A stretch of 49,154 nucleotides of DNA from Deltaproteobacteria bacterium (GTDB lineage: Bacteria > Desulfobacterota > Desulfobulbia > Desulfobulbales > SURF-16): NCBI GenBank assembly GCA_030667965.1, contig DAOUUW010000003.1:1-49154 (forward strand), read 5' to 3'. Each line of letters opens with the position of its first letter. Position 1 is the stretch's first letter. The translations under genes and the position numbers were made by a program. Positions 19,870-24,718 of the stretch are shown piece by piece. Under the pieces are notes generated by a model, which worked only from the letters and a program-made list of their open reading frames with translations, searched no databases and had not been told where the DNA came from.

Positions 19870-20331
19870 TTATGTCGACAGAGGAGCAGGTCCTTTGCCT
19901 TGAAAGAGTTTTTCCAGCAGCTCCGTTTCCCTGGCCGTCATTTTTTTTGCTTCCGCGTCGCCACGTTCATGGTCATAACCGAGAAGATGCACCAGCCCGT
20001 GGACGAGCAGAACGGTGACATGATCAAAGAGGTTTTTATCTGCGCTTGCAGCCTCACGTGCCGCAGTGTCCAGGGAGATGACGATGTCGCCGAGCAGTTG
20101 CGGGCCGACTGATATTTCATCGTCCAGCATGGGGAAGGAAAGGACGTTGGTTGTTTTATTTTTCCCCCTGTAGGAGGTGTTGAGCTCAGTCATTTTTTTA
20201 TCATCGACCAGCAGTATGCTCAGTTCGCTTTCAGCATAACCTGCCAGACGAAGTAGTTCGACAGCAGTGTTTTCCAGTTTTTCCAGAGGAAAAGGAGACG
20301 GATCAACGTCACTTCGCAACAGAACGCTCAT
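19870..20331 (-). CDS. ybeY: Endoribonuclease / rRNA maturation factor YbeY
   Basis: A 153-residue UPF0054 metal-dependent protein involved in 16S rRNA 3'-end maturation and ribosome quality control. The signature H-x3-H-x5-H is at His111, His115 and His121 (HGLVHLLGYDH). The conserved TNVLSFP motif is at 61-67. The start at ATG 20331 gives the normal family length and overlaps the end of the PhoH-like gene by 23 bp, a typical ybeZ-ybeY arrangement. A longer frame upstream only re-reads ybeZ sequence. Confidence 0.94.
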   Translation of the reverse strand: MSVLLRSDVDPSPFPLEKLENTAVELLRLAGYAESELSILLVDDKKMTELNTSYRGKNKTTNVLSFPMLDDEISVGPQLLGDIVISLDTAAREAASADKNLFDHVTVLLVHGLVHLLGYDHERGDAEAKKMTARETELLEKLFQGKGPAPLST

Positions 20332-21319
20332 GTTCCTTGTCCTTTTTTTTCGCCTTTTTCTCCTTCTTCTCGTAGGCCCTGATAATCTGCTGTACCAGAG
20401 GGTGGCGCACCACGTCAACATCAGTGAAATAACTAAAGGCAATTCCCTTGACATTTTTAAGGACCCGGGAGGCATGGATCAGGCCCGACCCCCTGTCGTG
20501 GGGCAGGTCAATCTGGGTGATGTCGCCGGTTATGACTGCCTTGGAGCTGAAGCCGAGCCTGGTCAGAAACATTTTCATCTGCTCATGACTGGTGTTCTGT
20601 GCCTCGTCAAGAATGACAAAGGCGTTGTTTAAGGTGCGGCCACGCATAAAGGCAAGGGGGGCAATTTCGATAATTTCCCGTTCAACCAGTTCCTTGGCCT
20701 TTTCCCGGCCGAGCATATCATTCAAGGCATCATGAAGCGGGCGTAGGTATGGGTTGATTTTTTTGACAAGATCACCCGGAAGAAAACCGAGATTCTCACC
20801 CGCCTCCACGGCAGGGCGGGTGAGAATGATCGATTTGACCTGGTTTGCGGTGTAAGCGGCAATGGCCATGGCAACGGCAAGGTATGTTTTGCCGGTACCG
20901 GCGGGACCGATGCCGAATGAAATATCATGGTTGCGGATTGCTTCAATATACTCTTTCTGATTGATGCTTTTCGGCGAAACAATCCGCTGTTTTGCGGTGA
21001 TATATACCTGGTCCAGAAAAATGTCTTTCAGGTTTGTCCTCGGTGAACGCTCCAGGATGTGCAGGGCGTAAACCACGTCGGAAGAATAGACGGGGTAGCC
21101 GGTAATAATGAGATCATAAAGCTGGTTCAAGGCTGCGGAGGTGATCCCAACATCATGATCAACACCTGCAATGGTCAGTGTTGTTCCCCGGGCCTTGATC
21201 GTTACGCCCATCACTTTTTCAATGGCCATCAGGTTTTTGTTCAGGTCGCCGTAAAGAAGGCGGGCAGCCTCGTTATCGGCAAAAGTAATTTCTTTATGCG
21301 CGTTTTTACTTGATGCCAT
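20309..21319 (-). CDS. ybeZ: PhoH-like ATPase (YbeZ)
   Basis: 336 residues. An N-terminal KH-like region (about 10-75) and a P-loop ATPase/helicase-like domain: Walker A GPAGTGKT (138-145), Walker B VILDEAQN, and ITGDITQIDLP. It ends in a Lys-rich tail (YEKKEKKAKKKDKEHER). It is commonly linked with YbeY in RNA metabolism. ATG 21319 lies four codons after the UGA stop of the upstream selenoprotein candidate and in the same frame. Confidence 0.92.
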   Translation of the reverse strand: MASSKNAHKEITFADNEAARLLYGDLNKNLMAIEKVMGVTIKARGTTLTIAGVDHDVGITSAALNQLYDLIITGYPVYSSDVVYALHILERSPRTNLKDIFLDQVYITAKQRIVSPKSINQKEYIEAIRNHDISFGIGPAGTGKTYLAVAMAIAAYTANQVKSIILTRPAVEAGENLGFLPGDLVKKINPYLRPLHDALNDMLGREKAKELVEREIIEIAPLAFMRGRTLNNAFVILDEAQNTSHEQMKMFLTRLGFSSKAVITGDITQIDLPHDRGSGLIHASRVLKNVKGIAFSYFTDVDVVRHPLVQQIIRAYEKKEKKAKKKDKEHERSVAK

Positions 21320-21331
21320 GGATGCTTTTGA

Positions 21332-22195
21332 TCAGCTGCCGCCTTTCAGCTTGGCCATTTCCTCGTCAATGATTGTCTGGAAGCCTTGTACGCTTCTGTC
21401 TTTGAGCCTTCTGCCGTTTATATATATGGCAGGAGTTCCCTTGACACCTGCGGCAGCGCCGTCAATCATTTCTTTTTTGATCCTGTTTTTTGTCGCAGGG
21501 TCAGCCATGTCCTTGATGAACTGTTTTTTGTCCAGGCCGAGTTTGTCGGCGATTTCCAGAAATTTCTGCGGACCAAGGGTTTTCATGTTGAGGAAGAGTT
21601 CGTCGTGATACTCCCAGAATTTCCCTTGTTTCTGGGCGGCAATCGCCGCCAGAGCAGCAGGATGGGACTGTTTATGACCGCGCAGGGGAAATTGTTTGAA
21701 GGCTATTTTGACGGTTTCAGGATTTTGTTCGAGCACCTGCTCGAATAACTGCCCGAGGCGGGCACAGTAAAGTCACTGGAAGTCGCTGAAAACGGCAATT
21801 GTAATGGGCGCATCGGCCATGCCGAGAAAGGGGGCGTCTGCGGTATCGATATCAACAATGAACGAGTAGCTGATTTCCTGGATAAGGCCGGAGCTTTCAC
21901 TGCTGAGAAAAAGCTTGTCTTCCAAGTTGGCCAGGTCAAGTCCTGAAACGGAAATCCGGTTAAAGGAAGGATCAACCGTAATTTGATCCTGCAGCTTGCC
22001 GTCTCTGCTGAAAATGTTGACAGTGCCTTTGTTTAAAACAAAGACATGTTTGCCGTTAACCGAGCTGGCCAGGTCAAGAGGGAAGCCGGCAGTCTGAAAA
22101 GAGCTGCTGACTTCCGATTCAATTTTTGCCTGTGCCGGAAGGGCAAAACCCATCGTGCCGATGAGTGCTGCCAGGAAAAACGTTTGTAGTTTCAT
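21332..22195 (-). CDS. Secreted DsbA-like thioredoxin-fold oxidoreductase, candidate selenoprotein (Sec141 encoded by UGA)
   Basis: Read with UGA 21773-21775 as selenocysteine, this is one 287-residue frame. A signal peptide (about 1-23, ending PAQA) is followed by a region of about 95 residues with beta-propeller-like strands (GKHVFVLNKGTVNIFSRDG), not the usual DsbG/DsbC dimerisation domain. The thioredoxin fold begins DAPITIAVFSDFQ, then U141-L-Y-C144, then ARLGQLFEQVLEQNP, FKQFPLRGH and the cis-Pro loop VKGTPAIYING (Pro255). Relatives have FSDFQCPYC, so UGA replaces precisely the first catalytic Cys. The frame is intact on both sides and a hairpin follows the UGA. GGAGGTG precedes the ATG. 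It would act in periplasmic thiol-disulfide exchange. The alternative is a nonsense mutation. Sec decoding needs selA, selB and selC elsewhere. Confidence 0.8.
21749..21767 (-). promoter_or_regulatory. Candidate bacterial SECIS hairpin
   Basis: Starting 6 nt after the UGA, CUG-UG-CCC-GCCUC-GGG-CAG can fold as two 3-bp stems separated by a bulged UG, with a 5-nt loop whose first base is G. An alternative is a continuous 6-bp stem, UGCCCG/CGGGCA, with loop CCU. Bacterial SECIS elements are short stem-loops just 3' of UGA with a G early in the loop and often a bulged U. This fits, but short GC hairpins are common. Confidence 0.5.
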
Positions 22196-22240
22196 AACAC
22201 CTCCATGAAATCACTGATGTTTTCTTGCGTAAAGAGATAA

Positions 22241-22376: not shown

Positions 22377-23600
22377 TCAACGCTTTATCCATTCTGCCAG
22401 AAAAACTGCCAGATGGCGGGCCCGGGCTGTCTCCTTTGAGTTTTGCAGGCCCTGCTGCCATTGCAGCAGGCAGCCGCTACAGGTTGTGACCACCATGTCG
22501 GAAGATAGTTCCTTGAATTCAGCCAGGGCTCCGGACATGATTTTTTTGGAAATATCCGGGTGGGCAATTGTAAACAGTCCCCCCTGACCACAGCAATGAG
22601 GTCCGAGAGGGAGTTCCTGGGGAGGCTGTCCGCATATTTTTTCAATCAGCTGCCGGGGGGGGGAAGTGATTTTCTCTGCACCAAAACGAAGATGACAGGG
22701 ATCGTGATAGAAAACACGGAGTTCCGCTTGATTGGATCCGGGTGAAGAGCTGACTTGTGTATCAAGAAATTGAGAAAATTCCAGGAGCCGTTCTGCAAAG
22801 AGTTCTGCCTGTCTGCTCCAGTCCGGATCGTCGGCCAGCAGTTTCGGATAGGAACGTAGATGGCTGTAACAGGAGGCGCAGGAGGTGAGGATGGGCCATG
22901 TATTGTCTGTAAATGCGGTAATGTTTTTTCTGGCAAGCTTCTGGGCCTCTTTTCTGTTGCCGGAAGCAAATGAAGCAAGGCCGCAGCAGGTTTGTTTCTC
23001 CGGAGTTTCAATGCCTTTGCCGCTAAAGTGGTTGACGAGAAACTCCGTGGCCCTGCTGATGTCATGGCTTAGATATCGGGCCAGACAGCCGCTGAAATAG
23101 TTGATTTCGGCAGGAGAGGTGACAGTATCTTTTTCAGCCGGTATGGGTGTGAGGGGCTGCAGAGCAAAATCTTCCGGCAGCAGGGACAGTTTATGTCGGA
23201 GGCCGCTTGATTGCGGCAGCCGTTTTAAGAGGTTTTGCCGCAGACGGGCCAGGCCGGAGAGAAGGGATGGTGCGGTGAGGCTTTTTCTTGCCAGCAGTTT
23301 TTCGGCAAAATGGGGCTGGTTCAGCAGGGGGATTTCGTGACGTGCGGCAATCATCAAAGACAGGGTGTCTATCTGGCGGGGGCAGGCGTCCAGGCATGCC
23401 CCGCAGGCAAGACAGGCTGAAAAGAGAGCGCCGTACGTTGAGGATGACGGGCTGGTATGACGGCCCAGCAGATGGAGTCTGCCCCGGGGTGTGTGCGACT
23501 CCCTGCCTGTCACCTGATAAACAGGACAGACCGATGTGCAGGCCCCGCATTTCGCACAGCGCTCCGCCAGGCAAGAAAGGTCGTCATTATCAATTGTCAA
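22377..23600 (-). CDS. (Fe-S)-binding oxidoreductase subunit, GlcF/LutA/HdrD-like
   Basis: About 407 residues. Two ferredoxin-type 4Fe-4S motifs (CAKCGACTSVCP and CLACGACLDACP) are followed by two CCG (cysteine-rich) domains (TCCGLASFASG, SCASCYSHLRSYP, HDPCHLRFG, HCCGQGGLF, CSGCLLQWQQG). This is the layout of the iron-sulfur subunit of glycolate oxidase, and of lactate-oxidation and heterodisulfide-reductase-like proteins. No FAD-linked GlcD partner lies adjacent. The start is uncertain: the frame is open up to GTG 23684, inside prfB, while the first plausible start outside prfB is TTG 23600. That TTG lies in an AATTGATAATTG-type repeat and lacks a ribosome site. It is the gene after prfB, with 22 nt between. 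Confidence 0.82.
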   Translation of the reverse strand: MTIDNDDLSCLAERCAKCGACTSVCPVYQVTGRESHTPRGRLHLLGRHTSPSSSTYGALFSACLACGACLDACPRQIDTLSLMIAARHEIPLLNQPHFAEKLLARKSLTAPSLLSGLARLRQNLLKRLPQSSGLRHKLSLLPEDFALQPLTPIPAEKDTVTSPAEINYFSGCLARYLSHDISRATEFLVNHFSGKGIETPEKQTCCGLASFASGNRKEAQKLARKNITAFTDNTWPILTSCASCYSHLRSYPKLLADDPDWSRQAELFAERLLEFSQFLDTQVSSSPGSNQAELRVFYHDPCHLRFGAEKITSPPRQLIEKICGQPPQELPLGPHCCGQGGLFTIAHPDISKKIMSGALAEFKELSSDMVVTTCSGCLLQWQQGLQNSKETARARHLAVFLAEWIKR

Positions 23601-23618
23601 TTTGCAATAATCAATTGA
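23586..23618. repeat. AATTGATAATTG repeat at the prfB/(Fe-S) junction
   Basis: ATTATCAATTGTCAATTTGC followed by AATAATCAATTG is an inverted-repeat-rich AT element like those at 1197 and 48079. It fills the prfB to Fe-S gene gap and, in the chosen reading, supplies the first codons of the Fe-S protein. Confidence 0.5.
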
Positions 23619-23622
23619 ATTT

Positions 23623-24718
23623 TCATTTTTGCCAGAGCAGATAGTCTTTGATAAAGGGATCAAGGGCGCCGTCCAGAACAGCACTTACATTGCCTGTCTC
23701 GTGATTGGTCCTGTGGTCCTTGATCATTTGGTAGGGCTGCATGACATAAGATCTGATCTGACTGCCCCAGGCGATTTCCTTTTTCTCCCCCTGCAGTTCC
23801 TGGCGTTGCTCTTTCTGCAGCTTCTGCTCCCGTTCGTAGAGGCGGGATTTGAGCATCTTCATTGCTATGTCCTTATTGCGGTGCTGGGAACGTTCGTTCT
23901 GGCACTGGACAACGATATTGGTTGGCAGGTGGGTGATGCGGATGGCGGAATTCGTCTTATTGACATGCTGGCCGCCGGCACCGCTGGCCCGGTAGGTGTC
24001 AATGCGCAGGTCTTTTTCGTTGATATCCACTTCGATGGCGTCATCCAGTTCGGGGAAGATGAAGACCGATGCAAAGGAGGTGTGGCGTCTGCCGCAGGCG
24101 TCAAAGGGTGAAATGCGCACAAGGCGGTGAATGCCCATCTCCGAACGTAAATAGCCGTAGGCATAGCGTCCCTTGACCATGATGGTGGTGCTCTTTACCC
24201 CGGCTTCGTCGCCCGGCTGCAGGTCGAGGATATCAGTTTTAAAGCCCTTGGCTTCGGTCCAGCGCAGATACATGCGCAGCATGATGTCTACCCAGTCCTG
24301 GGCCTCGGTGCCGCCGGCCCCGGCATGGATGCTCAGCATGGCATTGGCGGTGTCATGTTCGCCGGTGAACATGCATTCCAGCTCAAAGGCATCCATCTTT
24401 TTCTGCAGCTGTTTCAGGGTTTGGATTGCTTCCGCCTCGGTTTCAGCGTCATCCTCGTCAATGGCCAGTTCCAGCAGAATCTCGGTATCTTCACTCATAC
24501 CATGAAGGGCTTCCCATCCATCAATCGGGTACTGAAGCCTGCTTATTTCCTGCTGCACCTGCCTGGCTTTCTCGGCATCGTTCCAGAAATCGGGGCGGGC
24601 GGTTTGCTGCTCAAGCTCTTCTATTTTTTCTCTCTGGCCATCTAATTCAAAGACGCACCTTTAAGGAGAGGAGCCTTGATTGGATTTCCTGGAGTTTCTG
24701 TTTTAGTTCGGCGGACAT
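23623..24718 (-). CDS. prfB: Peptide chain release factor 2, expressed by +1 programmed frameshift
   Basis: RF2 recognises UAA and UGA. The gene starts at ATG 24718 and reads 23 codons (MSAELKQKLQEIQSRLLSLK, then VRL) to UGA at 24649-24647. After a +1 shift it continues as ELDGQREKIEELEQQ and on to the stop at 23623, giving 364 residues, the normal RF2 length. The catalytic GGQ is in SGAGGQHVNKT; the stop-codon recognition SPF motif is in ISPFDACGRRHTS. A naive reading would start at an internal site and lose about 50 residues. Low RF2 allows more shifting, so the gene is autoregulated. It follows the acidic-protein gene. Confidence 0.95.
24647..24661 (-). promoter_or_regulatory. RF2 programmed +1 frameshift site
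   Basis: AAGGTG-CGT-CTT-TGA: an internal Shine-Dalgarno-like AAGGTG sits 3 nt before the CTT slip codon and the in-frame UGA. This is the spacing of the canonical RF2 site (AGGGGG-TAT-CTT-TGA). Slippage of the Leu tRNA from CUU to UUU restores the long frame. Confidence 0.92.

Follow-up and report, generated by a model that had tools for sequence, protein, structure and literature searches.

A predicted selenocysteine thiol-disulfide oxidoreductase with two propeller blades, encoded beside phoH in Desulfobulbales

Results

An in-frame UGA in an exported thioredoxin-fold protein

We asked whether the UGA codon at 21773-21775, on the minus strand of a 49,154-nucleotide stretch of a Deltaproteobacteria draft genome (contig DAOUUW010000003.1; the window), ends a gene or is read as selenocysteine (Sec) within one. 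Translation of the minus-strand frame 22195-21335 yielded 287 residues with this as the sole in-frame TGA, at codon 141, in agreement with a first-pass annotation that had proposed a candidate selenoprotein with a single UGA in an otherwise open frame. Automated callers had been expected to split the gene, and the mechanical ORF list does exactly this, presenting the readthrough frame as separate ORFs of 140 aa and 134 aa. The readthrough protein matched Pfam Thioredoxin_4 (PF13462; 85.8 bits against a cut-off of 23.2, residues 121-278) and DSBA (PF01323; 70 bits against 25.6, residues 132-264), and the TGA falls within both matches, confirming the thioredoxin-fold sequence reported on either side of it. 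The DsbA-like identity given to the protein holds in that the DSBA domain is above cut-off, but the family sits closer to the DsbG/Thioredoxin_4 side than to DsbA proper. The signal peptide, ribosome site and cis-Pro loop that had been named were all found in the sequence, the first by eye. Positions 21332-22195 form one unbroken gene of a sulfur-cycle bacterium, coding for an exported enzyme that handles disulfides, with these features:

21332-22195, minus strand: complete gene of a predicted DsbA/DsbG-like selenoprotein, 287 codons followed by the stop TGA at 21332-21334
22199-22204, minus strand: ribosome binding site GGAGGT, from the sequence
22127-22195, minus strand: signal peptide, residues 1-23, by eye (MKLQ...PAQA/K); AlphaFold helix at residues 2-15
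21362-21835, minus strand: thioredoxin-fold domain of DsbA/DsbG type, residues 121-278, from Pfam, AlphaFold and structural matches
21773-21775, minus strand: in-frame UGA, predicted Sec141 at position 1 of UxxC (U-L-Y-C)
21431-21439, minus strand: cis-Pro loop G-T-P (Thr254-Pro255) in VKGTPAIYING; no variation at T254 or P255 in alignment A2

The active-site motif spans U141-L-Y-C144. The gene ends in another TGA, and phoH starts four codons on in the same frame (21319-21334). A SECIS-like hairpin was looked for after the terminal TGA (21332-21334) and was absent; we therefore read that codon as a true stop.

The genome (G000; 3.06 Mb, 94.5% complete, a draft in 263 contigs) encodes SelA (621 bits), SelB (376 bits), SelD (380 bits) and tRNA-Sec (70 bits; called by ARAGORN as tRNA-SeC, anticodon UCA), so that the search for selA, selB, selC and selD proposed at the outset found the full set that a bacterial selenoprotein requires. 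The selD gene likewise carries TGA in frame at the active site of its product. Among 58 genomes drawn from the genus, family and order of G000, selA was above cut-off in 53. The tRNA-Sec model also matched extra genes at 56-62 bits in six relatives (G051:C55, G042:C158, G056:C19, G050:C16, G028:C104 and G023:C61); in most of these genomes they accompany a higher-scoring tRNA-Sec, and in G056 the extra gene is the best match. The gene for release factor 2, which reads UGA (prfB, 23623-24558), lies two genes upstream of the UGA-recoded gene and remains close to it in several relatives, a proximity that is probably coincidental.

A syntenic family with Sec or Cys at one codon

Homologs were found in 57 of the 58 genomes searched. 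The first active-site codon was TGA in 31 of 69 readable homologs, TGC in 27 and TGT in 11, with no other codon. Five TGA rows (L087-L091) belong to a separate short paralog and were left out of ortholog counts, leaving 64 orthologs with a readable site: 26 with TGA (Sec) and 38 with TGC or TGT (Cys). The UGA thus lies, as had been claimed, at the first Cys of CxxC, and the alignment at residue 141 revealed Cys or TGA at precisely that codon, with no homolog broken there. A congener ortholog (L023, 77% identity) has TGA at the same codon, which makes sequencing error untenable. The loci were treated as orthologs because two flanking genes are conserved:

20309-21319, minus strand: phoH, downstream neighbour and synteny marker, immediately adjacent at almost every locus with sufficient flank
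22377-23684, minus strand: GlcF-like Fe-S/CCG protein, upstream neighbour at most loci where the flank is long enough

A plasmid collection contained distant homologs only. The window motif is ULYC, as against UPxC in most relatives, and the redox potential of the window protein may differ accordingly. The left-out paralogs are shorter DsbA-like proteins from five relatives, with TGA at the first active-site position (for example FIDFQUPHC) and a different fold downstream of it; they are apparently another selenoprotein subfamily.

A covarying SECIS element downstream of the UGA

Published criteria for bacterial SECIS (bSECIS) elements specify a loop of 3-9 nt, a stem of 4-16 bp, a distance of 16-37 nt from the UGA, a G within the first two loop positions and a minimum free energy (MFE) of at most -7.5 (PMC13188914). 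Two hairpins follow the UGA:

21728-21745, minus strand: SECIS apical hairpin UUCGAGC-AGGU-GCUCGAA, 7 bp, loop beginning 34 nt past the UGA
21750-21764, minus strand: second, smaller hairpin UGCCCGCCUCGGGCA, between the UGA and the SECIS core, from per-sequence folds

The hairpin at 21728-21745 (loop AGGU, 7 bp, 34 nt, -19 kcal/mol) falls within every one of these limits. The bacterial SECIS for which the annotation proposed a search is present and covaries, although the range it gave (21740-21775) would cut the conserved hairpin. Of the window's 33 in-frame TGAs flanked on either side by at least 60 open codons, only 21773-21775 is followed by a bSECIS-spaced hairpin with seven of seven Watson-Crick pairs. 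Because the peptide encoded by the hairpin, LEQVLE, is itself conserved, we used synonymous recoding as a control; the full seven-pair Watson-Crick stem arose in 378 of 100,000 recodings of the window sequence. A scan of the whole window against Rfam at the gathering threshold gave no matches.

Across 25 Sec sequences, 96% of 175 stem cells were paired, with compensatory changes on both sides at three stem pairs. RNAalifold predicted the main hairpin alone. Most Sec orthologs fold a similar small hairpin between the UGA and the core, of varying sequence and register (57% of cells paired, the register shifting between sequences). Stems averaged 6.4 Watson-Crick pairs in Sec orthologs versus 3.2 in Cys orthologs (p 8e-11, a value that ignores relatedness), and the Gln codon of the hairpin was CAG in 26 of 26 Sec orthologs, whereas 23 of 38 Cys orthologs had another residue or another codon there. 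When a covariance model built from the 25 Sec orthologs was run on other genomes, 11 TGA homologs outside its training set, including Desulfopila sp. IMCC35006 and metagenome-assembled genomes (MAGs) of Desulfuromonadales, Deferrisomatales and Desulfobacula, kept 5-7 stem pairs, and 8 Cys homologs outside the training set had 0-4. Three TGA loci (L095, L107 and L109) kept pairing despite quite different stem sequences, with one pair in L095 flipped from G-C to C-G. Cys orthologs have lost the SECIS hairpin, except for L058, which retains a perfect 7-bp fossil SECIS. In the genome of L058 (G043), tRNA-Sec was present and selA was not found, possibly because the Sec trait was lost recently or because the assembly has a gap.

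These comparisons bear directly on the readings in which the UGA is not decoded. Conversion of a Cys codon to a stop, through pseudogene formation or sequencing error, would take a single base change from TGC or TGT, and the draft state of the assembly leaves room for error. However, the TGA is shared by 26 orthologs and 11 homologs from independent genomes, the frame is otherwise intact, the SECIS covaries and the Sec machinery is complete, rendering this reading vanishingly improbable, much as the annotation had judged a chance nonsense mutation unlikely. Were the UGA a true stop, translation would yield an N-terminal piece of 140 residues and, from a start of its own, a C-terminal piece of 134 residues; a GTG start does exist at 21736, and a truncated product is plausible under low selenium. 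Yet that C-terminal piece would be without the entire active-site motif and without a signal peptide, and the Cys orthologs are single continuous proteins, so a true stop is very improbable. The conserved TGA together with the SECIS leads us to reject pseudogene, sequencing error and true stop alike. Machinery, ortholog codons and the covarying bSECIS support the selenoprotein reading that was first proposed, and on this comparative evidence the UGA at 21773-21775 is almost certainly decoded as Sec.

Repeated Sec/Cys changes among orthologs

A tree of 64 orthologs and 5 paralogs, built with the active-site residue masked, required 13 Sec/Cys changes over its 69 rows, at least 7 of them forced by well-supported branches. 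With 17 more loci (86 rows), 17 changes were needed in all, 16 of them within orthologs; over all 86 rows at least 9 were forced. Because the locus is syntenic, with phoH downstream, it is orthologs that have switched between Sec and Cys many times. Apart from L058, most Cys orthologs come from genomes that have both selA and tRNA-Sec, so more than loss of the trait underlies the switch. In a two-state model, log likelihoods were -47.0 for Cys-to-Sec only, -43.6 for two-way change and -43.9 for Sec loss only, values that depend on a quick tree, paralog rooting and sampling; under those conditions they disfavour the Cys-to-Sec-only model and do not reject Sec loss only.

Propeller blades precede the catalytic domain

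In the AlphaFold monomer model (mean pLDDT 93.8), a signal helix is followed by two propeller blades and then by a domain of DsbA type. The blades occupy a region of ~90 residues between the signal peptide and the thioredoxin-fold domain:

21860-22090, minus strand: two beta-propeller blades, about residues 36-112, from profile match, AlphaFold strands and Foldseek

The N-terminus matched profiles of the YVTN propeller 1l0q (E 1.2e-13) and of WRAP-T. Foldseek searches with the N-terminal model alone returned nearly all propellers as top matches, every one with E > 0.01; against the designed two-blade Cake2, the module gave a TM of 0.65 and E of 0.03 over all 80 aa. The nearest relatives of the catalytic domain were 3gyk, BdbD, Corynebacterium DsbA/TsdA, alpha-DsbA2 and ScsC, with structural alignments to 6nen, 7rgv and 6eez. 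A propeller cannot be closed by two blades on their own; Pizza2, a designed double repeat, completes its propeller as a self-assembled trimer (PMC7337062), and known isomerases with this fold are trimers (PMC5524982, PMC6450060). From this we infer an oligomer, and tentatively suggest that the two-blade module might position or oligomerise the catalytic domains.

Redox partners point to a probable reductase or isomerase

Neither DsbB nor VKOR was detectable in G000 (draft, 94.5% complete), so the partner expected of a DsbA/DsbB oxidative pathway was not found in this draft, which does encode a CcdA/DsbD-type protein beside an exported thioredoxin-like protein. DsbB occurred in 17 of 58 relatives and VKOR exceeded the cut-off in 3, whereas the selenoprotein family was present in nearly all; all 18 DsbB genes found adjoin a different DsbA paralog. 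The congener G001 does encode a DsbB, which weakens the case from its absence in G000, although this DsbB too adjoins a different DsbA paralog. Selenocysteine favours reducing chemistry. Because G000 has no detectable DsbB or VKOR but does have a CcdA/DsbD-type exporter, and because the protein combines a T-cisPro loop with a domain similar to those of ScsC and alpha-DsbA2 and also BdbD, we favour, with some reserve, a periplasmic reductase or isomerase over an oxidising DsbA. The alternative, in which the selenoprotein oxidises its substrates as DsbA does and relies on a membrane oxidase not yet recognised, would accord with the above-threshold DSBA domain and with the presence of BdbD, an oxidase, among the best structural matches. 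Against it stand the sparse distribution of DsbB and VKOR, the pairing of each DsbB with another paralog and the reducing bias of Sec, and we consider an oxidising role rather unlikely.

Discussion

The account that we regard as highly probable is of an exported Sec thiol-disulfide oxidoreductase, decoded through a SECIS element, with, less surely, a reductase or isomerase role. Sec would stand in for the nucleophilic Cys of the CxxC motif. SelB carrying Sec-tRNA-Sec would bind the hairpin 34 nt downstream, and the UGA would be read as Sec; after export to the periplasm, the U-L-Y-C motif would exchange with protein disulfides through its Se-S pair.

Knowledge of DsbA-like and DsbG-like selenoproteins with a UxxC motif dates back to 2005-2006 (PMC1088965, PMC1794560), and such proteins are catalogued (PMC13188914); the annotation was right that Dsb-like selenoproteins occur in deltaproteobacteria, from which, as from elsewhere, DsbA-like selenoprotein form 1 with UxxC has been reported (PMC1794560, PMC1088965). 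The window protein resembles the DsbG-like selenoproteins (COG1651/PF13462; the NF041057, Rcas_1661 family) in its Thioredoxin_4 domain and in a UxxC motif with Sec first (PMC1088965, PMC9312934, PMC13188914). It differs from the Rcas_1661 DsbG-like selenolipoproteins in scoring 73.1 bits against the NF041057 cut-off of 190, and the match covers the catalytic half only (model 81-246), whereas the N-terminus here consists of two propeller blades. It shares the DSBA domain and UxxC with form 1 (PF01323; COG2761 in the Sargasso Sea paper), a form known to us by description only, but Thioredoxin_4 is the better match here (85.8 versus 70 bits). The catalytic domain aligns with those of the trimeric isomerases ScsC and alpha-DsbA2, which likewise have an N-terminal part before it but are Cys enzymes whose trimers form through different N-terminal segments (PMC5524982, PMC8900818, PMC6450060). 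BdbD and 3gyk, its best sequence and fold matches, are Cys enzymes whose similarity spans the catalytic domain and not the blades; Cake2 and Pizza2 resemble the N-terminal module, but both are artificial, whereas the assembly of the module here is predicted. In the literature on selenoproteins of Desulfobacterota, Desulfobulbaceae and Desulfocapsa, searched mostly outside subscription journals, no title or abstract described the family, and within the same limited coverage we found no description of propeller blades joined to a Sec DsbA/DsbG-like domain. By sequence, then, the protein appears to belong to the known UxxC Dsb-like kind, with an architecture that we did not find described.

The 2006 survey recorded Sec-to-Cys conversion in four families only, mostly formate dehydrogenase and SelD, and Cys-to-Sec change only in the DsbA-like and DsbG-like families (PMC1794560); the fit of the two-way model and the fossil SECIS of L058 contrast with the latter (PMC1794560). 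The syntenic orthologs offer an exceptionally favourable natural series in which to ask why one site keeps switching between Sec and Cys. As standard gene callers split such genes, this phoH-adjacent redox family is probably mis-annotated in the order wherever it carries Sec. More speculatively, the blades of several chains could close one propeller, so that a ring-like oligomer presents several Sec thioredoxin domains and acts as a selenium-based isomerase, its orthologs switching between Sec and Cys repeatedly and mostly by Sec loss. If true, a natural split propeller would be the scaffold of a disulfide isomerase that works with selenium, with orthologs across Desulfobulbales and other Desulfobacterota.
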